This document shows, in pieces, positions 11,428-63,877 of a stretch of 64,000 bases of DNA. Position 1 is the first letter of the stretch, and each line of letters begins with the position of its first letter. The stretch covers positions 29,716,001 to 29,780,000 of the forward strand of contig NC_081818.1 of NCBI RefSeq assembly GCF_030704535.1, given 5' to 3'. The DNA comes from Vitis vinifera (lineage: Eukaryota; Streptophyta; Magnoliopsida; Vitales; Vitaceae). The translations under genes were made by a program, and so were the position numbers. The notes under the pieces are model-generated. The model was not told the DNA's origin, made no database searches, and was given only the letters and a program-made list of their open reading frames with translations.

Positions 11428-11635
11428 CATGCTTGGAGACTGATTCGATTTGATTAAGTACTACATTGAAGGGTACCCATCCCTATATGATATCAAAATT
11501 GACGAGGTCAATGGGTATGGTACCCAAAACACATGCTTGGAGACTGATTCGATTTGATTAAGTACTACATTGAAGGGTACCCATCCCTATATGATATCAA
11601 AATTGACGAGGTCAATGGGTATGGTACCCAAAACA
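11428..11635. repeat. perfect 104-bp tandem duplication
   Basis: The segment 11428-11531 is followed directly by an identical segment 11532-11635, each starting CATGCTTGGAGACTG. I see no mismatch between the copies. The identity implies either a very recent duplication or an assembly artefact. No gene is associated. Confidence 0.93.
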
Positions 11636-14600
11636 CGAGGCGACTACTAATGGGATGGCCATGAAATCGATGACATTGTGAACCATAATTGCATCATGGT
11701 GTTCATCATCATTCATCACCTCGGACCAGGGAGCTCGGTACAACAGCAGCCTTTTGACTTTGGATTCTATGCTAAATTTTCCATACTTGTTATTTATGAT
11801 TTCGCCTGGAATTTCAGACGAATCAGACCTGAAACCCACCTCCTCGGCCTCAAGAACACAAATCTTTGACCTCAAGCGTCACCCCCACGCCACCATTCAA
11901 TTCATTTCCCATCAAAGTTTGCTTAATTCCCTCCCTTTCTTTCTTTTTTTTTTTAAAAAAAAGAGGAAAACTGTTTGGCTGTAGACGAAGAGAGGACATT
12001 GATTTTGGTCCATACGCTTTCTAGATGATTTGGACTGCACCATGTGCCTGAGGATCTCCCATTCACCTCTCAATAAAAACTCTCTGACAACCTACCTCCT
12101 TTTCTCTTTTTCCTCTCTTTCTTTTTCTTCTTTGCAGAGGCACGAGTGTCTGGTTTGTGATTCACTATTTTGGTTGAAATTTGCTGCTTTTAATTCTCAA
12201 CCACCAAGTATCCTTTGGAGTCATTTTTTTTTTTTTTTAATATTCAGTTTCTGGTTCCGTTTGGATCCTGAGAAAGTTGAGAGAAATACAAGAAACTGAA
12301 GACAATGTTTAATTTTAATTTTAATTTTTTGGTAAAAATAGAGTGAATTTTGACAACAAGGGAAAACTATTTTTGATTTTCAATTCCTAAGTAATAATTA
12401 AAAATTATGTTTGGAAACAATTTTTTTGAGCTCTCAAATCATATTTCTTTTATAAATCTTGATGCTGACTTTGCCACTCTTTAAGCTACACTAGAATGAT
12501 AATTGTTGAAAAAATCCAGAGACAGTGGCCCATTACTTGACTATACTTAACCTAATATTTAGGTATAGCCCCAACATCAATTGGTGGCACATCAATAATC
12601 AAATCACCCTAATTCAACCCCATAATGTTTTAGGCGTTTACCCATTTGCTACTTACAAATTATAATAATAATAAATATATATTTAAAATAATAAGTCTAA
12701 TGCCACGTTGGAATGCCACTCTTGAGATCCATATTAGATAGCATTATCCACTATGATACGGATAATATAAAATAAGATCCGAATATGAAAAATATGAACA
12801 ACTCAGATTCAAAATTTTGGTATGATTGAATTTTGAAAAAAGAACAATGAGGGGTGAGTGATGAAGATGGAGCTACCACCTTAGTTGGCAAACACATGAA
12901 AACAGTTGTCAAAAGGGGTGTGAGCCCACCTAATGTTGGGCCCATTGGGCCTTTTAACCGTACACGTGGCCGCATATTTAAGGTTTGTGGAGAGGCCCAT
13001 GTGTGGCAAATAATTGTGACCAACTACCATAAATGGGCTTTGGTAGGTGAAAGTAGTCTATAAATTACAAAAAGTTGCTTTTAAATTCAGATCCGTGGGC
13101 TTGGGCCCACATGCTCACAGATCGGTTTGGTTGTTTACCGGAAAGCACGTGAGGGTTTAGCCTTTAGGTTGTGGGCATCATATCACGGTTAGAGCCCATT
13201 AGAATCGACCAACCCAAGCTCATGTATAAAAATCGGTCAAGGCCATTCGACTAAACCACGTGTTGTGGGCCCTTGACACCTATTTTTCCGATGATGGTCC
13301 AAGATCATTTCAGAAGGGCCCAAAAGTTCATAGGCTGGTTCGAATCATTCATTGGAGAAATGGGCTCAACTCTAGTCCAACCCAACTTTTAATGAATTCA
13401 GGAAGTTTGATTTGTAATTTGGAGTTGGGACCCGAAACTTAATTATTAAGTTAAGCTATATATTTAAAATAAATTTATTACAATAATTTTATTTTAAAAT
13501 TTTAAAGTTATAACCCAACCTGATTTTATAACAAACCAACAAATCTAAACCCGCCTTCATAAATCCGAGCTTAATCTGAATTTAGATGAGTTTAGATTAG
13601 GTAACTTAAAATTATTGTAATAATTCATATGTCACCCGTTTGAGCTTTCCCAGTAATTAAGTTTTTAAGATAGTGGGGGAATGCCCAAATTATATCTATC
13701 ATTTAATAAACAATTTGGTTGGAAATAATGTTTTTATTAAAAAAATAAAATAAAATAAAATTAGGGCGTATGAAAATTAATTAGTTTTTCTCGTCCTCTT
13801 AAAATCATATATAAATAATACCTACTTTTTTTTTTTCTTCTAAAAATCATCATTTTGTTGTTTAAACATATCGAGCAAAAATACTTTTTCTTTTATGATA
13901 TCTAAACAATAATTGAATCTTCATAAAATCCTTTATAATAAAAAAAAACCAAAAATATTTTCATCATAATAACTCCCAAATAAACTCTAAAATTATTGAT
14001 ATTATGAAATATTTGTATCTTACTTTCTATGAGGACTAAAATTTAGGCAAATTGATTGAGTTGATGGTTAATATGAGTTCAACTCAATTTAAGAAACAAC
14101 TTTTAACCTCTTACCTATATAAACTAACTTTATCCAATTTAAATTGATGGAATTAGTAAGACTCGAGTCAAATTATATAATTTAAAGTTTATCTATAATA
14201 ATTTTTTACTATATCTTTATATCAAAATTTGAAATAGTAAATAATTTAAAGACAACATTAAAAAAGTAAAATACATTGAAATGACTTTATAAAATAAATA
14301 AATAAAATATATAGTATAATATAATTTGATGTTTTTTTTTCTTAAATTTGAAAAAGTAAATATTATTAGATGAATGATATACTTTATAAATATTATAAAA
14401 AAAATTAATGAAAAAGTTTGATTGAAAATCTTCTAAACTCGCCTAATTGTTGGTATCTAATTAAATGAGGCAAACCCACCTAAATTACACCCTTACCTTT
14501 CAGATAATATCATATATGGCATAAAAATAAATAAATGATTATTCAAAAATTTAAATACAATTATGCTAGGTGGCAAAAAAATCCCAGAAACAACCCATCC

Positions 14601-37470: not shown

Positions 37471-38341
<871 letters not shown>

Positions 38342-49175: not shown

Positions 49176-51102
49176 GCTGGTAGTTATATAACTTTACTGG
49201 GCCTTGGGCATTGAATTGAAGGTTAACTAGAGTTCTTCAAACAGAAACCGAGACAAAACACACCATGCAGAAACTCAAAGTAACCAAGCTGAACAAGTAG
49301 AGACATTAGTTCAATCCTTAGCCATATATATTTTTTTTCTTGTAGATATATGAACCGATACCAGATGTACTTGCAAATAGTAAGGGGCCAGTGGTTGGCT
49401 TACTAGATGTTGGATTTATTATGGTTTGAGTGATCCCAGCATAACCTGGAGGAAAAGAGAGTTGTTTGTATAGGGCGTAATCCATAGGAAGGAAGCAGTT
49501 ATGCTGTATGACATTCTATAACATTCTTTGATTCATAATTCTACTGTTTCTTCTGTCAAAAAGGTCACTGTAATGTGGGTGCCACAGCCTCAATATTGAA
49601 TATACCTGGATTTTCAAGTCCATTTTTTGGTTTTGTGTGGCCATCGGAGAACCCCATTTTTGTCAAGAGTGGTATGTAAAATGACTAATGTGGTAGGCTG
49701 GCAGATGGGTGTTTCCTGATTCTATGTTTTTGTGATTTGTTCACATTTCTGAGTGCTTGGATTATTGGATAATCTTCAAAAGCAAGAACACTATTGTAGT
49801 AGTTGCAGCCATTTTCAGTTGGGAGGATGTACAGAGGAGTATTGGGAAACCCCACTTCCATACAAAGGTGGGATGCAAATGTGGTGAATTGGAAAGATGG
49901 GTCTTTCATAATTTTATGTTTTTGTGATTTGACTTGGGAAAATTATTTGGTAATTTTTAAATTTTCTGTATAAGGGAAAGAACCAATAGAAATGGGCCCT
50001 TATAACTTTAATATTTGTCTATTTAAAAGGATATATATAGATGTATTTTAGACATCATTTACATTTATCTATGATATTTCTTATTTTGCATATTTTGCTA
50101 TTTATGGCTTCCCTTATTCTTCATAGAGGAGAATGATACATGTGGGGATGATCTTCTGCATTGATGATCTTGATGGTTTATTTTGATTAAGATTGCAGTT
50201 ATATTTGATTGTTTATCACATCATGATCTTTGGATTGTGACTTTAGTTATCTATCATGGTTCATACATTTTTTCTTATTTGAAAGTATTGTAAAACTTAT
50301 ATAATTATTATTTTATTACAAAATTGTCAAAATGGGGGGATTGTTAGCAACCTAAACTAACTAGTTTAGGTTGACAAGTTTATTTCAAATATTTTTAGAT
50401 TTGACTCTATATACTTATTTGATTTTACATCGGCATTGAAAATACATGATCATCCCGAACTCAAATATAAGATGGTATGCATAAGTATAGTTAAGAATGT
50501 TTGGTGAATAATGTCATGCATTTGGTTGAAAAACATAAGACTTTTAATAGGAGCACTCAAGTGACTTTATGTATTCCCAATTAGCCCATGCTTTGATCGA
50601 GATTGTTCAAAATGGTTTACCCCATTCCTTTGAATGGTTGAGGAGTTCATTAAGGGGATACAAGGGATACATCCTAAACTTAAATATGAGTGTTTTTCAT
50701 TTTTTCTTTATTTAAGGTTTGTAATAAAGAATTGGGCTTATTTTCAATTTTAATATTTTAAATTCTCTCAATAGTTTTAATTTTCCTAATATTTTATTTT
50801 ATTAATTTTTAAAACTTATTTATTCATTTAATAATTTTGATACTTTTTAAGTTTTATTTATTTTATTTAGTGTATAATCTCATATTGAGTTAAAACATTA
50901 AGATTAATGTGCCTTGGAATTCTCCGAGTCAATGACCTTGATTATGACTTTGAATCATGAGAGAGAAATAAATTATCAAACATAATGATCCCATAATAAT
51001 AATCAAATTTTAGTTTTATTTGTATATTGGTGATAACATTTCTCCATGTATTTTTGATATGGTAGATACACCTTCTAATTAAGTCCATGCAGCATAGATT
51101 AC
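49176..51102. other. 3' flank of GALT1 and spacer of the first array unit
   Basis: The first 450 bp are the galactosyltransferase 3' flank. From about 49640 the sequence belongs to the cysteine-rich peptide array: two partial promoter copies and a decayed first exon (listed separately). The stretch from about 50170 to 51000 is repeated at 60335-61340 and, in part, at 55150-55580. No other gene is present. Confidence 0.6.
49640..50000 (-). pseudogene. decayed first copy of the cysteine-rich peptide gene
   Basis: On the minus strand, 49812 down to about 49776 reads MAATTIVFLLL, matching the start of the three intact paralogues. Similarity then stops within the signal peptide; there is no cysteine exon. 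Upstream (49820-50000) the promoter matches its paralogues, with ATGCAAATGTGGT, GTAATTTTTAAA and GAAAGAACCA at the right spacing. A second partial promoter copy lies at about 49640-49740, so this end was itself duplicated. Clearly non-functional. Confidence 0.75.
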
Positions 51103-51427
51103 TCAGGGCTTCAGTTTTGGATCACAGCACTCTTTACAGGAAGGCTTCGGATCATACACACACAGGCAGCAAGCACTACATGTATCATCACAGCCTACAT
51201 TCAGAAAAAAAAAAAATGGAATCAAATGAAGATATACATGTACATTAGAACTAGAAACTTCGGTTAATTGGAGATGATATATACGTGATCAAACCTGCTT
51301 CAATTCCAGTAGCAGATGAAGATGTCTTGATGGCATATGGAAGGCGAGGGTTGGCTTCAGCCTTGAGCATTGAGGAAGTAAAAAACACCAGGAGCAACAA
51401 GAACACCATTCTAGTAGTTGCAGCCAT
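51103..51427 (-). CDS. small secreted cysteine-rich peptide, paralogue A
   Basis: Two exons on the minus strand, 51427-51295 (133 bp) and 51194-51103 (92 bp), with a 100-bp GT-AG intron, giving 74 residues. Residues 1 to about 25 (MAATTRMVFLLLLVFFTSSM, then LKAEA) are a signal peptide. A short linker NPRLPYAIKTSSSATGIEAG follows, then a 29-residue tail with eight cysteines in the order C-x3-C-x2-CC-x-C-x7-C-x2-CC. I do not recognise the family. The size and secretion signal suggest an apoplastic defence peptide, protease inhibitor or signal, but function is unknown. I use the second in-frame ATG because the upstream one directly abuts the TATA box (TTTATAAA, 51472-51479). The intron and promoter are conserved in paralogues B and C, which supports this as a real gene family. 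Confidence 0.8.
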
Positions 51428-51886
51428 TTTCAATTTCCAGGATATGCAGAGGTGTTCTGGAGAACCCCACATTTATAAAGAGCAGAGGTATGCAAATGTG
51501 GTAAACTGTACAGTTGGGTACATGTCATGATTTGTCTTTGGAATATTAATATTGGGTAATTTTTAAAATTTTCTATAAACTTAAAAGAAAGAACCAGTTA
51601 TGGTTATGTTGCTGGATTAAAGTGGGTAGGATCCTCAAATCATTGTCTGGTTGAATGGAGGCTAAAAATATTTTATATAGAAAAAATATGGTCATAAACA
51701 ATGATTTTCATGTTACAAAGTTTAAATTTTGCTTGCCACTTGAAATATTAACACAAGGACTTAAGGCAGATTACAATGGGATTAGACCATATTCATGTTT
51801 TAAGGATTACAAAATTTTTTAGAATCAATATTTTAATAATAGAAAGTTTTCTTATTTTCAGTCTTAATGTTTTTTTTGTTCCTTTT

Positions 51887-52963
51887 GGCTATGTTTGGTT
51901 TCCGGAAAATGCAAGAGAAAAAAAATTGGAAGGAAAAATGGAAAGAAAGAAAAAGGTAAGGAAAGTAATATAAATTTTTTCGCTTGTTTGGTTATCCATG
52001 AAAAATTCAAGGGAAAAAAAAAATTATTTTCTTTTGTTTGGTTAACTATGAAAAAAAAGTCAAGGAAAAATGAAAGAAAAATAAATTCAATAATTTGTCT
52101 TTATCAATTTATAGAATAATAAAATAAATTTTATATTTTTATTTTCTAAAAATCAAGGCTGTGCTGAGCCAAGTTTGCTGGTCAAAGTCTGTGCACTTGG
52201 TTGCAGGGTCCAGGGTTTGGTTGAGTTGTTGAATGGTGTCTTGATACTGCTTCAAGCAATCAGCCCATGCAGCCTTCTCGCGCTCGTTGCGGCACTTGGA
52301 CCCCAGCCACTTGTTGTGGCTCTGCGCGGTGAGGGCTCGCTCCATGGCCACCTCCATAGCCATCTTTCGGAACTCGGACTTCTGCTTGGGCGCATTGTAC
52401 TTGTGCCCACCATGGCTCATGAAGTACTTGCATGGTGCCGGATATGGCGTTTTGTCGCACCACCAGTTGACGTCGCCGGAGTCAGAAGCCGATAGGGTGG
52501 AAGAGAAAAATGACAAGGAAAGCATAAAAATTGCAAATAACCCGAGCTTTATCGCCATTACAGGGGTTGTATTTCTCTAGGTTGCAGTGGCTGTGGCTCT
52601 GGTGACGGGCTTGTTTATATAGGATAGTGAAGTGATGGGATACAGGTTGGCTTGTTTTGAATATGACTATGAGGAATATGCAAATAAATAAATCATGTTT
52701 CTGAATTCAGTTCTGCAGTGAGAGAGAGACGGGGGCGGGGGGGTGTGCTGTGAAGAACCCGATAAATTTTTCCCAACTTTCTCTCTTATTTTCCTCATTA
52801 TTTTTTAAGGAAAATAGTAGGGAAAATATTATGATATTTTCCATCATATTTTCCTTTATATTTTTTTTCCATCATATTTTCCATGTAATCCAAACTAAGG
52901 AAAATAATTTTTCACATGATTTTTTTTCCTTTCCTTAGCATTTTCCGGGAACCAAACATAGCC
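51887..52963. mobile_element. 1,077-bp TIR element carrying a captured pectinesterase fragment (Pack-type)
   Basis: The terminal inverted repeats are 25 bp with one mismatch: the left end GGCTATGTTTGGTTTCCGGA (51887 on) mirrors the right end finishing at 52963. TTT on both sides (51884-51886 and 52964-52966) is a likely 3-bp target duplication. The equivalent site in array unit B, near 57310, reads straight through without the element, which confirms an insertion. Subterminal regions are AT/purine-rich with repeated TTGTTTGGTTA words. The centre (about 52145-52740) is strikingly GC-richer and derives from a host pectinesterase gene. The 3-bp duplication suggests PIF/Harbinger, but the T-run leaves this uncertain. 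It has no transposase, so it is non-autonomous. Confidence 0.85.
52139..52558 (-). CDS. truncated pectinesterase N-terminus (PMEI-like domain) inside the TIR element
   Basis: A 139-residue open frame. Residues 1 to about 24 form a signal peptide (MAIKLGLFAIFMLSLSFFSS, then TLSA). Residues 25-135 match the inhibitor-like pro-region of plant pectinesterases: C34-x8-C43 with CDKTPYPAPC, the helical RKMAMEVAMERALTAQSHNK, then ADCLKQYQDTIQQLN and FDQQTWLSTAL. The match stops abruptly at WLSTAL, where a normal gene continues through the pro-region into the catalytic domain. The last few residues and stop come from transposon sequence. The upstream part of the gene came along as well: CTATATAA on the minus strand near 52620 is about 60 bp before the ATG. 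The frame could encode a secreted, truncated inhibitor-like protein if transcribed. It is best regarded as a captured gene fragment of unproven expression. Confidence 0.75.
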   Translation of the reverse strand: MAIKLGLFAIFMLSLSFFSSTLSASDSGDVNWWCDKTPYPAPCKYFMSHGGHKYNAPKQKSEFRKMAMEVAMERALTAQSHNKWLGSKCRNEREKAAWADCLKQYQDTIQQLNQTLDPATKCTDFDQQTWLSTALIFRK

Positions 52964-53292
52964 TTTATGTTTGATTTAATTCAACTAAGACCACTCCTTT
53001 TAATGAAATATATTACCTAAGAAGAACAAATGTTTAATGATAAAAATAAATAAAATTATATTGAAATAAATATAAATATTTAGAAAGTATAATGAAGAAT
53101 ATGAATTTCATGGTAAGTATTCCTAATAAGATAGAGTAAACAAAATTTAGCAAACTTATGAACTAGTATTTCTTTATAATGATTACTTTTATTAAAGGAT
53201 TTAACTAATTAGAAAATTATTAACATAAGAAAGTGAAGAAGAATATGGAAAATGAAAAGGATTTCTGAAAATGTTCTTTATCATGAAATTTG

Positions 53293-53493
53293 ATTATTTT
53301 TTACTTTAAATATTCAATTAAAATACTAAGGTCATATTTGATTTATATATATATATATATCACTGATATTATCTCATGTCAATCAAATATGGAGTTATAT
53401 ATGTTATCATTTCTTTTATCATATTTCATGTTGTCTCTTGTAAATTAAATATGACCTTAGTATTTTAATTGAATATTTAAAGTAAAAAATAAT
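53293..53493. repeat. perfect 47-bp inverted repeat with 107-bp loop
   Basis: The left arm 53293-53339 and right arm 53447-53493 are exact reverse complements by my reading. The sequence includes ACTTTAAATATTCAATTAAA and CTAAGGTCATATTT. Only the left arm exists in units B (near 57635) and C (near 62580), so the right arm is an inverted duplication private to unit A. Confidence 0.88.
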
Positions 53494-54019
53494 ATATTTG
53501 ATTGACATGATATATATATTAATCTTAATTTAAAATATAGGAAATACATGTATTATAAATATATATATTTTTATTTTTTATATGAGTTATTTTAAAAATA
53601 ACAAATTTTATTAAAAAATTTAATTCATAGATATAAAAGAAACTAAGAAAATATTTATAAAATATATTGTAAAATAATGCTAATGTATGTATTATTTAGT
53701 ACATATAAATTATTTTTATATATTAAATAAAATAACATAAAATTTTTTATTTATCAATTTTAAATATTTTACTCATAAATATTGTTGATGAATAAATAAT
53801 TTATTATTTACTACATTTTAAATTATTGAAAATTTTCTAAATAACATTAAATATAAGAGAAATTTCATATTTTTCTAATAAGAAATATTATAATGCAACA
53901 TAATTTTATTTTAAAATAATTATCTAATATTGAATTTCTTCATTCTAGAAATTAAATATAAATATGATATAACATATTCCATTAGATATATTAGGATAAT
54001 ATATTTGAAGTTATTTTCA

Positions 54020-54240
54020 ATCAAACCCTATTTATAAAAAACAGTGGTATACAAATGTTGTAAATTGTACAAGTGGGTACATGTCATAATTTTATTTGTT
54101 GTATTGTAACTGATTTGTTGTTGGAATATTATTGGGTAATTTTTAAATTTTTCTATAAATTAAAGAGAAAGAACCAATTATGCTAATGTCATTCAACTTG
54201 ATTGATCAAGTGGTTTGAATCCTCGAATCATCTTTTAGTT
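54020..54240 (-). repeat. gene-less promoter copy, unit A
   Basis: Matches the promoters of the cysteine-rich peptide genes: TTTATAAA, then GGTATACAAATGTTGTAAA, GGGTACATGTCAT, TTGGGTAATTTTTAAA and GAAAGAACCA in the same order. No signal-peptide or cysteine exon lies downstream of it (to the left). Confidence 0.75.
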
Positions 54241-54474
54241 GAACTACTAAAAATTTTGGTATGTCCTTTTTAGTAAATATTGGTGAGAAAAAGTAATATG
54301 AATTTTAAGAAAGCTACTAATTTTCTTAAAAATTCAAAATTTGGTCGTGATTTCAAATGAAAACACAAAGACTTAACGCAAATGAGTATTTTCTTAAGAT
54401 AGTATTTTATACTTTTATGGTGCCATATCAATATATCATGGTATAACCTTACAATGAAATCGAACAAATATATT

Positions 54475-54738
54475 ATTAGTCCAAAGATTGTTCTAATCAA
54501 ATTTTGATAATTACAAAATGAGGTAAAGTTTACTAAGGTTGAGAAAAAGAAGATAATTACAATAAATATGCTATTATTACAAACTCATCTAATCATTATA
54601 TCAGCAATTAGTCCAAAGATTGTTCTAATCAAATTTTGATAATTACAAAATGAGGTAAAGTTTACTAAGGTTGAGAAAAAGAAGATAATTACAATAAATA
54701 TGCTATTATTACAAACTCATCTAATCATTATATCAACA
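54475..54738. repeat. 132-bp near-perfect tandem duplication
   Basis: The segment beginning ATTAGTCCAAAGATTG at 54475 is repeated from 54607 with about one mismatch near its end. It is absent from the equivalent places in units B (near 60240) and C (near 63710), so it is recent and private. Confidence 0.9.
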
Positions 54739-56397: not shown

Positions 56398-56511
56398 TAA
56401 TAATAATAATCAAAATTTAATTTTATTTATATATTGGTGATAAAATTTCTCCATTTATTTTTTATATGGTAGAAACATCTTCTGATTACTAGTCCACGCA
56501 GCATAGATTAC

Positions 56512-56850
56512 TCAGGGCTTTAGTTTTGGATCACAGGATTCACAGCACTCTTTGCAGGTAGGCATCGGATCATACACACACAGGCAGCAAGGACCACATC
56601 TACATATACCTTCACAGCCTACATTCAGAAAAAAAGAAATGGAATCCAATTAAGATATACATGTATATTAGAACTAGAAACTTTGGTTAATTGGAGATGA
56701 TATATATGTGATCAAACCTGTTACAATTCCAGTAGTAGATGAAGATGCCTTGATGACATATGGAAGGTGAGGGTTGGCTTCAGCCTTGAGCATTGAGGAA
56801 GGGAAGAACACCAGGAGCAACAAGAACACCATTCTAGTAGTTGCAGCCAT
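56512..56850 (-). CDS. small secreted cysteine-rich peptide, paralogue B
   Basis: Two exons on the minus strand, 56850-56718 (133 bp) and 56618-56512 (107 bp), giving 79 residues. The first exon is nearly identical to paralogue A (MAATTRMVFLLLLVFFPSSM, then LKAEANPHLPYV): a signal peptide plus linker. The tail has ten cysteines rather than eight. An extra C-G-P step follows the second cysteine, and an ESC insertion precedes the conserved end DPKLKP. The central CC-L-C-VYDP and C-KE-CC are unchanged. The splice sites and promoter (TTTATAAA) are intact. No known family is recognised. The odd-looking additions keep frame and keep the cysteine count even, so the gene is probably functional. Confidence 0.8.
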
Positions 56851-58064
56851 TTTCAGTTTGCAGGATATGCAGAGGTGTTTTGGGGAACCCCACATTTATA
56901 AAGAGCAGTGGTATGCAAATGTGGTAAACTGTACAGTTGGGTACATGTCATGATTTGTCTTTGGAATATTAATATTGGGTAATTTTTAAAATTTTCTATA
57001 AACTAAAAAGAAAGAACTAATTAAGGTTATGTTGCTGGATTCAAGTGGGTAGAATCCTCAAATCATTGTCTGGTTGAATGAAGGCTAAAAATATTTTATA
57101 AAGAAAAAAATGGTCATAAACAATAATTTTTAAGTTACAAAGTTGAAATTTTGCTTACCACTTGAAATATTAACACAATGACTTAAGGCAGATCATTACA
57201 ATGGGATTAGACCATATTCATGTTTTAAGGATTACAAAATTTTTTAGAATCAGTTTTTTAATAATAGAAAGTTTTCTTATTTTCAGTCTTAATTTTTTTT
57301 CCTTTTATGTTTTAATTAATTCGACTAAAACAACTCCTTATAAGGAAATATATTATCTAAGAAGAACATATGTTTAATGATAAAATAAAATAAAATTATA
57401 TTAAAAGAAAAATAAATATTTAGAAAGTATAATAAAGAATATGAATTTCATGGTAACTATTCCCAATAAGATAGTTAAAAAAAATTAGCAAACTTATGAG
57501 CTAGTATTTCTTTATGATGATTTCTTTTATTAAAGGATTTAACTAATTAGAAAATCATTAATACAAGAAAGTGAAGGAGAATATGGAAAATGAAAAGGAT
57601 TTTTGAAAATTTTCTATATCATGAAATTTGATTATTTTTTCCTTCAATATTCAATTAAAATACTAAGGTCATATTTGGTAAAAGGGATACAATATGACAT
57701 AAGATAAAACAAAGGACAATATATCTTATTTTATGTTTGATTGATAATAGAATACGATAAATATGTATTATAAATATATTTTTTATTATTTTTATATTAG
57801 TTATTTAAAAAAATTATTAAAAATTTTAATTTGTAGTTAAAAAAGAAACTAATAAAATATTTAATAAATACATTATAAAATAATACTAATGTATGTATTA
57901 TTTTTAGTACATATAAATTATTTTTATATATTAAATAATATGACATAAAAAATTTTATTTATAAATTTTAAATATTTTAATCATAAATATTGTTGATGAA
58001 TAAATAAATAATTATTTACTACATTTTAAATTATTGAACAATTTTTAAATAACATTAAATGTAA

Positions 58065-59605
58065 TGAAAATTGATTTATTGATTTTTCGTCTTTTATCGC
58101 ATCAAAACACAATTTATAACCTAATTCACTATTCTATAATCATTTGTACCCAACCAAAACTGGTTTTAATACAAACTATCGTAATATAGTGGTTTTTAGT
58201 TGTCATCCATTAGGATAAATTATTCTCGGTAATTAAGGCTTAAATGGAGAAAAAGAAATGGTTGTGATAAAGTGCAGTTCATGATGAAAAATCAAAATAA
58301 CAATAATTTCTAATTGAGAAGAACAATAAAATGTAAAAGAAGAGAAAATTAATAGGAAAAGAAATTCTCAGAGTTAGGATTTTCTAGAAAACAATTTCTA
58401 TGGGGAATAGATGTTGAGATCTATTTTTTATCAAGTTAGATTGAAAACCTAAATTTTCATTTAAACTGATTTTAGATTTAACTTTAAGTCTAAACTTAAT
58501 TTCTCATCAAATTAGGTTATTTAATCTAAAAGATCGATTTAAATTATATATTCAATTCATCTTAAATCATTTTCCAATGATTCATACAATGCAATTATTT
58601 GATCTCATCAAATATAATTTTAAGAATTTAATAAATCTACTTAGTTTGCAATGTAATAGTCATTTAAGATAATTTGAAAAGAAAAATCCTCAAAATCTAA
58701 GTAATCAATCAATTGGATCAAATTACCTTGGAAATTAAAACTCATTTTTCTAATTCACCATAGATCTTGCTTTTAGATTTTCCTTCCTTTGAGAAAACGA
58801 GAATTAGTTACTCATGCTTGTAGATTTAATCTCACAAGGCATGTTTGGCTAGTGAGAAAATTTGGGAAAATGAAGGAAAATAGAGAATTCTATTAAGAAA
58901 AAGAATCTAGAAAACTCTATAATCAATAGTGTTTTACATGAGAAATTCAAGTTTCAATTTATAAGCCAAGGTCAAGTGGACACTTAGCAACCTCTCATTG
59001 GTCTTCTAGAACCTTCCAGATTTACAAATTTGGAGTTTATCATCAAAATCAAGATTTCGCATGAACTTTGGCCAATTTGTACAAAGACCATCAATTTTGC
59101 ATGATTGTGCGAAATTCAGTCAAGTAGTAGTAGCAATAGAGGTTTTCTAGATTGTTTCGCAACTTCAAGCAAAATTTTGCATAGTGGTGCGAAATCCATT
59201 ATTTTCACTGCAACAAATTCGTTGCATTCCTCTTTCTAGTTTGATTCGCATAGTCATGCAAAATTGCAATATAAGGCTTTTAGCTCTTCTTTGTCAATTC
59301 TTCAATTTTCTTCTTTTTACTCTAAGTTAATTACCTCCAATAAGTCCAAATCCTAATTCAAACCAATTTCATTACTTCTTTCATTATGCATTTGAATCAT
59401 CATCAATATTATTTGCCTTCTTCAAATCGATTAATTTCTTTGTTAACTCAATTCATCAAAATCACACCTTGAAATGTCTTCAAACTTCACAAAACTTGTT
59501 AATAACTCTTACAAGGATAACAACATGTTAATCGGGTATTTTAGATATAATTATTACTCAAAATATGTGAAACTTATGAGAATTATTATCCAAAATATGT
59601 TTTTT
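58065..59605. mobile_element. insertion of about 1.5 kb private to unit B, probably retroelement-derived
   Basis: In units A (near 53860) and C (near 63110) the flanking sequences (TAAATAACATTAAAT and TTTCATATTTTTCTAATAAG) are adjacent; in unit B they are 1.5 kb apart. The insert has no coding sequence. It contains repeated words such as TTTCGCA, GTGCGAAAT and TTTTGCAT, and a line resembling the MITE end (GGCATGTTTGGCTAGTGAG near 58838). A solitary LTR or a non-coding retroelement piece is plausible. I could not identify its ends with certainty, and it appears decayed. Confidence 0.5.
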
Positions 59606-60030: not shown

Positions 60031-61183
60031 TAAAAATTTTGGTATGTTCCTTTTAATAAACATTGATAAGAAAAAGTAATATGAATTTTAAGAAACTTAT
60101 TAATTTTCTTAAAAGTTTAAATTTGGTCGTAACTTCAAATGGAAACATGCAAATGAGTGTTTTCGTAGGAGAGTGTTCTATACTTTTATTGTACCATATC
60201 AATATATTATGATATAACCTTATAATGAGATCTAAAAGATATATTATTAGCCTAGAAATTCTCCTAATCAAAGAACCCAATACAAATTTGATAGCATAAT
60301 TAAATATTGTCAAGAATCCACAGATCCTGAAACTACTTTTGATGATTTATTTTGATTATGATTGTGATTATATTTGATTATTTATCACATCATGATCTTT
60401 AGATAGTGACTTTTATTATTTATCATGGTTTATACATTTTTTTTCCTATACAATGCTTTTTATTGTTGTTTACCTATAAGTCATTTGTTTTAGGCAAGAG
60501 AAATTGCATGATGTATGAAATCATTTTGAGAGTATTGTAAGGCTTATATAATTATTATTTTATTACAAAATGGTCAAAATGAGGGGATTGTTAGCTACCC
60601 AAACTAGTTAGTTTAAGTTGACAATTTTATTTCAAACATTTTTAGATTTGACTTCATATACTTATTAGATTTTACATCGGCCTTGAAAACGCAAGATCAT
60701 GCTGAATTCATACATAGAATGATATACATAAGTATAGTTGAATATGTTTGGTAAATAATGTCATGCAGGGGTTGAAAAATATAACAATTTTAGTGGGAGC
60801 ATTCAAGTGATTTTTAAGGGCTCTCAAGGGCTTGTAATGATTTTTCTGTGATTTACTTATTTTATTTAGAGTTCTTGAAATTATCCTTACCCAACCCACT
60901 AAAGTTTTTACAATACACCTTTCAATCGTGATTTTGACACATGAACAGTCTACAATTTATTGTCATTATTCTCTATATATTTCCAATTAACCCATGCTTT
61001 AAGTGCAATTGTTCTAAATGGTTGACTTCATCCCTTCAAATAGTTGAGAAGTTCACTAAGGAGCACATGACTACTTTTCATTTCTTTTTTAATTGAGTTT
61101 ATTTTCAATTTTAATTTTTAAAATTCTTCGAATAATTTTAATTTTTCTAATATTTATTTTATTAAAATTTTAAACTTATTTGA

Positions 61184-61208
61184 TTATATATATATATATA
61201 TATATATA
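61184..61208. repeat. (TA)n microsatellite
   Basis: About 12 TA units in the unit B/C spacer. Confidence 0.9.
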
Positions 61209-61485
61209 GTTGATGATTTTGATTTTGATTTTGAAATAGTTAGCATGATATCGAGTTGAAACATTGAGACCAATATGTTTCGGGACCCTCCGAGTCAATG
61301 ACCATGATCGTGACTTTGAACCACGATAGAGAAATAAATTATCAAACATAATGATCCCAAAATAATAATCAAATTTTAGTTTTATTTATATATTGGTGAT
61401 AAAATTTCTCCATTTATTTTTTATGTGGTAGATACACCTTTTTCTAATTACAAGTCCATGCAGCATAGATTACTCAGGGCTTCAG

Positions 61486-61798
61486 TTATGTGGAACAGCA
61501 CTCAAAGCAGTGAGGCTTCGGAAGATACACACACAGGCAGCAAGCATCACATGTGTCACCACAGCCTACATTTAGGAAAAAAAGAAATGGAATCAAATTA
61601 AGATATACATGTATATTAGAACTAGAAACTTTGGTTAATTGGAGGTGATATATATGTGATCAAACCTGTTACAATTCCAGTAGTAGATGAAGATGCCTTG
61701 ATGACATATGGAAGGCGAGGGTTGGCTTCAGCCTTGAGCATTGAGGAAGCGAAGAACACCAGGAGCAACAAGAACACCATTCTAGTAGTTGCACCCAT
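61486..61798 (-). CDS. small secreted cysteine-rich peptide, paralogue C
   Basis: Two exons on the minus strand, 61798-61666 (133 bp) and 61565-61486 (80 bp), giving 70 residues. The signal peptide and linker match paralogues A and B (MGATTRMVFLLLLVFFASSM, then LKAEANPRLPYV). The tail keeps the eight-cysteine pattern C-x3-C-x2-CC-x-C-x7-C-x2-CC. It ends early at ST instead of DPKLKP, and the loop reads VYLPKPHCFE instead of VYDPKPSCKE. It is therefore shorter and less acidic than A. The splice sites are conserved. The TATA region here reads CATTTAAAAAG, weaker than TTTATAAA in A and B, so expression may be lower. Family unknown. Confidence 0.77.
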
Positions 61799-62775
61799 TT
61801 TCAGTTTGCAGGATAGCAGAGGTGTTTGGGAGAACCCCACATTTAAAAAGAGCAGTGATATGCAAATGTGGTAAACTGTACAGTTGGATACACGTCATGA
61901 TTTGTCTTTGGAATATTAATATTGGGTAAGTTTTAAAATTTTCTATAAACTAAAAAGAAAGAACCAATTATGGTTATGTTGCTGGATTCAAGTGGGTAGG
62001 ATCCTCAAATCATTGCTGGTTGAATGGAGGGTAAAAATATTTTATATAGAAAAAATTAATGGTCATAAACAATGATTTTCAAGTTACAAAGTTTAAATTT
62101 TGCTTGCCACTTGAAATATTAACACAAGGACTTAAGGCAGATCATTACAATGGGATTATACCATATTCATGTTTTAAGGATTACAAAAAATTTTAGAATC
62201 AATATTTTAATAATTGAAAGGTTTCTTATTTTCGTCTTAATTATTTTTGTTCCTTCTAAGTTTTAATTACTTCGACTAAAACAACTCCTTATAATGACAT
62301 ATATTATCTAAGAAGAACATATGTTTAATGATAAAAAATAAAATTACATTAAAAGAAATATAAATATTTAGAAAGTATAATATAGAATATGAATTTCATG
62401 CTAACTATTCTCAATAAGAAAGTAAAAAAAAATTAGCAAACTTATGAACTAGTATTTCTTTATAATGATTTCTTTTATTAAAGGATTTAACTAATTAAAA
62501 AATCATTAACTTAAGAAAGTGAAGAAGAATATGGAAAATGAAAAGGATTTTTAAAAATTATCTTTATTATGAAATTTGATTATTTTTTACCTTAAATATT
62601 CAATTAAAATATTAAGATTATATTTGGTAGACTTGATATAAGATGGAATAAGATAAAAAAAAAGAAAAAAAAAAGAATAACATATCTTATTTCATATTTA
62701 ATTGACAATGGAATATAATAAGTCGTCTTAACACTTATCATATCAAATGTTCAACTAAAGATGAGATACGATGAA

Positions 62776-62840
<65 letters not shown>
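62776..62840. repeat. long (TA)n microsatellite
   Basis: About 30 TA units with one ACA interruption near the start. It lies where units A and B have only short AT-rich sequence, so it is expanded in unit C. Confidence 0.92.
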
Positions 62841-62842
<2 letters not shown>

Positions 62843-63259
62843 TTATTTTAAAAAATAAAAAACTTCATTAAAAAATTAATTTGTAGTTAAAAAAACAAAA
62901 AAGAAATATTTATAAAATATATTGTAAAATAATACTAATGTATGTATTATTTAGTACATATAAATTATTTTTATATATTAAATAATATAACATAAAAAAA
63001 ATTATTTTTAAATTTTAAATATTTTAATCATAAATATAGTTGATAAATAAATAAATAATTATTTACCACATATTAAATTATTGAACAATTTCCAAATAAT
63101 GCTAAATGTAGGAGAAATTTCATATTTTTCTAATAAGAAATATTAAAATGCAACATAATTTTTATTTTAATAATTATTGAATTTATTTATTTTGAAAATT
63201 AAATATAAATATGACATAACATATCTCATATTATATTTAGATTTATTTTCGATTAAAAG

Positions 63260-63480
63260 GATATGCAGACCCCACATTTATAAAAAAAAAAAAACAACGG
63301 AATGCAAATATGGTAAATTCCAAGAGCGGGTATATGTCATGTTTTTATTTGTTGAATTGACTGATTGGTTTTTGGAATATTATTGGATTATTTTTAAACT
63401 TTTCTATAAATTAAAGAAAAAGAACCAATTATGCTAATGTTGTTGAACTTGGATTCAAGTGGGCAGAATCCTCAAATCAT
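63260..63480 (-). repeat. gene-less promoter copy, unit C
   Basis: CCCCACATTTATAAA, GGAATGCAAATATGGTAAA, ATTATTGGATTATTTTTAAA and GAACCAATTATGCTAATG appear in promoter order. An A-run replaces the sequence between the TATA and the ATGCAAAT motif. No peptide exon lies beside it. Confidence 0.75.
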
Positions 63481-63877
63481 GGCTAAAAATTTTGGTAAGT
63501 CCCTTTTAGTAAATACATCAGTAAGAAAAAGTAATATAAATTTTAAGAAAGCTATTAAATTTTTTAAAAGTTTAAATTTTGGTCGTGGATTCAAATGGAA
63601 ACACACAAGGATTTGAGGCAAATGAGTATTTTCTTAGGAGAGTATTCTATACTTTTATTATACCATATCAATATATGTATAACCTTACGATGAGATCTAA
63701 CAGATATATTATTAGCCCAAAATTTTTCCAAATAAAAGAACCTTATAATAAGAACCCCAACACAAATTTGATAGCATAATTAAATATTGCTAAGAATCCA
63801 CAGATATTGAAACTACTTCTGAATCAATCAAATCAAGGTGATTTCCTTTACAGTAATTGGTCTGCATATTCTCATGA

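Follow-up and report, generated by a model that had tools for sequence, protein, structure and literature searches.

A Pack-type PIF/Harbinger element of grapevine carrying the 5' end of a pectinesterase gene

Positions 51887-52963 of the window, i.e., the 64,000-nucleotide stretch of the Vitis vinifera genome analysed here (NC_081818.1, 29,716,001-29,780,000), are a non-autonomous transposon of 1,077 bp at C14. We consider it very probable that this is a Pack-type PIF/Harbinger element that took up first the 5' end of a MOT1-type gene and then the 5' end of a pectinesterase (PME) gene at C16, that it came to occupy two loci, and that it lies here in a TTT site of an otherwise empty array. The features are:

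51887..52963, no strand: complete non-autonomous PIF/Harbinger element with captured cargo (terminal inverted repeats, target duplication, two empty sites, C10 copy)
51887..51911, + strand: left terminal inverted repeat (TIR), GGCTATGTTTGGTTTCCGGAAAATG (end-to-end comparison)
52939..52963, - strand: right TIR (end-to-end comparison)
51884..51886, no strand: TTT target-site duplication, left copy (empty-site alignment)
52964..52966, no strand: TTT target-site duplication, right copy (empty-site alignment)
51887..52155, no strand: left arm, common to the transposon family, ~269 bp (comparison with relatives)
52752..52963, no strand: right arm, common to the transposon family (comparison with relatives)
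52153..52697, - strand: captured PME segment, 139 bp upstream plus codons 1-135, with TCA common to gene and arm at the junction
52142..52558, - strand: 139-aa open frame with a signal-peptide-like start (by eye) and a truncated PMEI domain (ORF list, Pfam)
52614..52621, - strand: captured TATA box TATATAAA, ~60 bp 5' of the ATG (sequence and comparison with the parent)
52698..52731, - strand: what is left of the sequence upstream of a previous cargo, a MOT1-type molybdate transporter gene (match to the source gene and to elements L011-L013)

The terminal 25 bp match each other inverted at 24 of 25 positions (chance ~4e-13 under a simple base model), as near-perfect as an initial annotation of this DNA had described them. 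It had also pointed to TTT on both sides and to an empty site in the neighbouring array; the former is proven to be a duplication by empty-site alignment, and the latter is real, with two empty sites (near 57303-57306 and 62254-62256) instead of one. The left flank (50565-51884) resumes in 60971-62255 and the right flank (52962-54496) in 62252-63731, a third array unit matches across 56400-57677, and when the flanks are joined and aligned with the two empty units the occupied site has one additional TTT. Owing to this single additional TTT, the site is read as a 3-bp target duplication accompanied by two empty sites. The insertion at C14 probably postdates the duplication of the array, exact loss of the element from two units being the less likely alternative. 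The array units carry short secreted-peptide-like ORFs (MAATTRMVFLLLLVFF...) that resemble one another from unit to unit, at 51251-51427 (- strand) with relatives in 56400-57300 and 61361-62255; the one copy scanned (61622-61894) matched no Pfam family. Elsewhere in the window, a ~325-bp element-like stretch (54788-~55112) opens with the same end, GGCTATGTTTGGTT, and has a decayed right end, a lone related end, GGCATGTTTGG, stands at 58838 with no partner seen, and recent-looking tandem duplications are found at 11428-11636 (104-bp unit, 100%) and 37760-38341 (297-bp unit, 99%).

Save for a G-rich tract of ~20 bp, the content of the element is accounted for by its arms, the PME segment and the MOT1 stub. 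There is no transposase inside it, i.e., it is non-autonomous as Pack-TYPE elements are, and it shares with them a host-gene cargo with a source elsewhere and the presence of more than one genomic copy. Searches of the window's own genome (495.6 Mb, 21 contigs) gave a second full copy at C10:12485095-12486179 (best 40 of 747 candidates scored), which is 97.5% identical and has its own TAA duplication. A 28-base terminal pattern occurs at 66 exact genomic sites and its reversed control at none. Complete elements (n = 21) were picked for their resemblance to the window element and for the terminal pattern, a choice that does not make cargo frequencies genome-wide ones; omitted from the counts were L023 and L044 (single arm or broken end) as well as L015, L017, L018, L021, L024, L027, L035, L040, L041, L043, L045, L046 and L050-L052 (no full end pair within the fetched stretch, or unresolved). 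Identical 3-bp flanks border 18 of the 21, with TAA or TTA in 10 and TTT, TTG, AAA (2), ATA, TAT (2) and GTA in the other eight, and the flanks mismatch in L020, L022 and L028b.

The initial annotation had left the superfamily among Pack-MULE, Harbinger and CACTA, and it can be settled as PIF/Harbinger based on the 3-bp duplications and on a 6.47-kb family member (L033:501-6970) that has a DDE_Tnp_4 (PF13359) fragment between the same arms (E 5.2e-12), in broken ORFs of which two of the three tested had no Pfam match. The TTT duplication of the window element, being neither TAA nor TTA, counts against this assignment, though the same is true of 8 of the 18 clean duplications, its own included. 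The 9-bp duplication of Pack-MULE (Mutator) elements is absent, as only 3 bp are added relative to the empty sites, and these 3 bp are likewise not the 8-bp duplication of hAT. Pack-CACTA termini generally begin with CACTA or CACTG. Such ends are absent from the window element, whose termini are GGCTATG; the Pack-CACTA terminus used as input in PMC8903248 is CACTACAA.

The core was found at three places (DNA search, all three candidates scored), namely the window, the C10 element and a PME gene at C16:16960113-16960657, which is 97% identical and the only genomic source detectable by DNA search. Its homology runs from 139 bp 5' of the ATG to the final codon of WLSTAL, the junction at which the initial annotation had expected parental homology to end, and beyond it the gene continues with TNLDTCRAGF and then the pectinesterase domain. 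The parent thus encodes both a PMEI domain (model positions 3-156) and a pectinesterase domain; a second PME-like open stretch lies downstream of it (by eye). The next-best genomic relatives are PMEs with 51-55% protein identity at seven places, followed by weaker ones down to 29%. With this parent, the second copy at C10 and many places having the same ends, the proposed Pack-type gene capture is supported. The GC-rich core with a PME pro-region frame is confirmed, as 270 C/G are found in 541 bp of core (111 in 468 bp of arms) and the ORF 52142-52558 has a Pfam PMEI match (4.8e-22) that covers model positions 3-116 of 156, its final four residues, IFRK, coming from the transposon arm. The TATA box TATATAAA that had been noticed about 60 bp before the ATG is at 52621-52614, with the ATG at 52558, and occupies the same position in the parent gene.

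Compared with the C16 gene, the cargo of either copy has 15 differences over 545 sites, and they are the same 15 in both. Within the coding part, 13 of 220 sites differ in codons 6-74 and none of 186 thereafter (p 0.0003), and two further differences fall within the 139 bp upstream. Aligning window 52153-52697 with L010 4001-4545 (the C16 gene) shows, in gene orientation, an identical final 186 bp and differences in the first two thirds. Eleven codons are changed, and of the six that we judged polarisable by paralogues five point to a change in the gene with the older state kept in the element, and one, codon 69, has the opposite polarity with the change on the element side, some calls depending on the nearest of outgroups that are 51-55% identical. 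Given that both copies carry the same 15 sites and that most changes are on the gene side, the donor of the segment may have been another allele than the C16 reference gene. Selection, a non-reference donor allele or conversion between elements could each underlie these differences and the contrast between the two copies described below, all of which was noticed post hoc in a single pair. We dropped dN/dS between cargo and gene (0.019 / 0.092) as a sign of selection, as the stem contains the branch of the functional gene, on which five of the six polarisable codons changed.

Four family members (L011-L014) contain the 5' end of a MOT1 gene, the source of which is on C9 (L048; MFS_MOT1 1e-59). 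In the PME elements the PME segment is followed, on the side of the right arm, by a MOT1 stub of ~32 bp, which agrees with the source gene at 27 of 32 bases, ~30 bp 5' of the source ATG, and with L011-L013 at 27-29 of 30-32 bases; the matches to the source and to L011-L013 each exceed the best of 200 shuffles. The presence of this stub in the PME elements implies that PME replaced an earlier cargo, and on these alignments the simplest reading would be that it took the place of most of an older, L011-L013-like MOT1 cargo. L014 is without the stub (7/8 bases only), which counts against this reading and makes a predecessor of the L011-L013 kind the likelier. The left arms of the PME and MOT1 elements fall into a single clade (100/100); the right-arm tree unites them at 45/81 only, which again counts against. 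Arm and PME gene have TCA in common at the left junction and one base at the other junction (by eye). L011, L012 and L013 also have in common a 290-bp deletion in the MOT1 cargo, and L014 is undeleted; reading this 290-bp segment of L014 as an intron was rejected, as in the source gene it is part of the open MOT1 frame and the difference is therefore an internal deletion in L011-L013.

We thus propose the following order of events. An ancestral element would have held the 5' end of a MOT1-type gene, and in a later event the 5' end of the C16 pectinesterase would have been placed between the left arm and the remnant of the MOT1 upstream region. The resulting PME element would then have come to lie at two loci, C14 and C10, presumably mobilised in trans by a transposase of the family, and the C14 copy would have entered a TTT site of the array, the other units staying empty. 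The captured segment includes sequence above the TATA box, which is expectedly untranscribed, and its source was probably DNA rather than mRNA. Capture at the DNA level could have proceeded through repair or through template switching at stalled forks, guided by short microhomology (TCA and one base), and these junctions fit the template switching of Pack-TIRs as presented in PMC8277862.

Between the C14 and C10 copies 22 aligned sites differ, none of them in the 417-bp ORF. Ten of the 22 are in the G-rich tract and MOT1 stub, the G-rich part of which is poorly aligned; without this stretch, a single difference is left among 540 core sites, as opposed to 11 among 468 arm sites (Fisher p 0.0019). 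There are no differences at all at element positions 179-703, a tract that covers arm, ORF and leader. C>T or G>A accounts for 9 of the 11 arm changes (polarised by the majority of relatives), and the core, rich in C/G as it is (270), has one change (p 9e-5). For comparison, arm/core divergence is 1.1-1.8x in three MOT1 pairs, leaning weakly the same way, and 0.6-1.2x in ten RING pairs. One possible, if less probable, account of these figures, compatible with the order of events given above, is that the cargo was recently copied from an old element into another through their common arms (gap repair or gene conversion), leaving arms that are older than the cargo. Both the contrast between core and arms and the unbroken identity across arm, ORF and leader would follow. 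However, within the set of 21 elements no arms are closer to those of either copy than the arms of the other copy, no independent arm pair is required, and such copying is not separable from selection within one genome.

As for the capture step alone, it is rather unlikely, though worth weighing, that the element is a hybrid as in Pack-CACTA, formed when two neighbours, one on each side of the PME 5' end, transposed jointly after loss of their inner termini. The junction data are also compatible with this model, which is set out for Pack-CACTA in a review (PMC13317346). In separate trees L014 is the neighbour of the left arm (91) and L011-L013 are those of the right arm (98), and the MOT1 stub is L011-L013-like and missing from L014. 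However, the right-arm grouping failed to reappear in a repeat tree run, the topology tests reject no alternative (p-AU 0.226, 0.237, 0.44), and the 8.5 kb surrounding the C16 PME gene hold no match to the arms (E up to 1e-3). A hybrid origin of the arms, suggested by the separate trees, thus has no support from the topology tests, and we kept the model as a rival for capture only.

Stepwise capture by a Pack-type element leaves the question of what the cargo does, and a function appears doubtful from its sequence. The initial annotation had it carrying its own promoter, which stands insofar as 139 bp with the TATA box and leader were captured, i.e., a core promoter, and does not stand for the rest of the PME upstream region, which is absent; upstream of the PME segment there is instead the MOT1 remnant and then the transposon arm. 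The same annotation proposed that a secreted truncated PMEI-like protein might be made from the element under duplicated cell-wall gene control; its signal peptide would be a putative one, judged by eye. A complete PMEI domain is a four-helix bundle. The PMEI domain of the ORF is incomplete (3-116 of 156) and short of what a functional PMEI protein has. Searching PDB sequences with the 139-aa ORF gave a weak PMEI match (E 0.044), and a single-sequence structure prediction (pLDDT 47) was set aside as too poor. With only the core promoter captured and the PMEI domain ~40 positions short, we regard the cargo as, in all likelihood, a passenger. Firing from the TATA box and leader that were taken along is nonetheless conceivable, and its product would be a short transcript or a secreted peptide that is truncated and probably not inhibitory. 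The small secreted-peptide-like ORF at 51251-51427 (-) has its ATG 459 bp from the element, on the same strand and with the element pointing at it, and chimeric or read-through transcripts into it are possible.

That selection maintains an expressed ORF or core promoter, for a truncated PMEI-like secreted peptide or for transcription toward the ORF 459 bp off, strikes us as improbable. The lack of substitutions in the ORF, the low divergence of a C/G-rich core beside arms with mostly C>T or G>A changes, the fact that no MOT1 or RING pair has so large a contrast, the intact ORF in both copies and the TATA box retained at C14 all speak for it. Against it, there is a single copy pair, the contrast was spotted post hoc and the MOT1 pairs lean weakly alike; the identical tract takes in non-coding sequence and is equally well explained by conversion of cargo between elements; the PMEI match is incomplete; and one base is lost at the TATA box of the C10 copy. 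We would likewise give little credence to a broader proposal, that core promoter, signal peptide and most of the PMEI domain are preserved by selection or repeated inter-element copying while the arms decay, and that the TATA box could drive the small ORF. An ordinary PME pseudogene of the array whose inverted repeats arose fortuitously is practically out of the question, as its one merit, an ORF that derives from PME, is outweighed by the empty sites, the TIR match, a second copy with its own duplication and the same arms around other cargos. An ordinary pectinesterase locus was rejected too: homology stops at WLSTAL and at 139 bp 5' of the ATG, so that the PME locus at C16 is not colinear over the 1.08 kb, and a second element with the same TIRs exists, the two points on which the initial annotation had made capture depend.

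Recognised host fragments are present in 13 of the 21 elements: PME (2), MOT1 (4), RING (5), MADS (1) and protease-like (1). The RING label comes from Pfam on the L026 ORF only, with L020, L022, L047 and L039 assigned by their common core (78-98%), and the MOT1 label from Pfam on the source gene, through which the four cargos were assigned. The RING core has further matches in the genome. The L019 cargo, a putative DEG7-like protease going by the appearance of its ORF, has no Pfam match in that ORF and a 93% match at C14:17692737-17693438 (best 40 of 81 candidates). L038 288-1973 is a family member with MADS-box N-terminal fragments (SRF-TF 3.4e-19), its repeats recognised by eye, and related copies of its MADS core occur elsewhere in the genome (best 40 of 67 candidates). 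PME, MOT1 and RING cargos are read toward the left arm and the MADS and protease-like cargos toward the right arm, and we claim no rule of orientation.

The window element is an unusually complete case in which parent, junctions, predecessor cargo, sister copy, transposase-bearing relative and two empty sites are found in one genome. It provides sequence evidence that a PIF element is able to swap cargo and an example of a captured segment diverging less between copies than the surrounding transposon arms, and it makes the retention of captured promoters and signal peptides testable across accessions. No report of a pectinesterase-bearing transposable element was found among the literature matches listed. 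Pack-MULEs and Pack-CACTA resemble the window element in having captured gene fragments flanked by terminal repeats (PMC13317346); the family described here has neither a 9-bp duplication nor CACTA ends and its transposase fragment is DDE_Tnp_4. Pack-TIRs of animals, for which gap-filling and FoSTeST models were put forward in 2021 (PMC8277862), have similar breakpoint microhomology and multicopy elements following template switching, but they are animal systems, and our element is known from end products only. Pack-TYPE PIF-Harbinger transposons described in 2022 (PMC8903248) are likewise non-autonomous, with TIRs, target duplication, coding cargo and several copies, but their hosts are rice and maize, and 'Vitis' and 'pectin' are absent from the main text. 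The Pifvine families of grapevine (Benjak et al. 2008; PMC2528002) are PIF/Harbinger elements with transduplicated gene fragments, 20-35-bp TIRs and 3-bp duplications that are mostly TAA or TTA. Pifvine cargo sits in the long 5' region of transposase-bearing elements, whereas the window element is ~1.1 kb long and carries a PME 5' end that succeeded an earlier MOT1 cargo. Gene-carrying PIF elements of grapevine have thus been published since 2008, and the present element is a well-documented further example.
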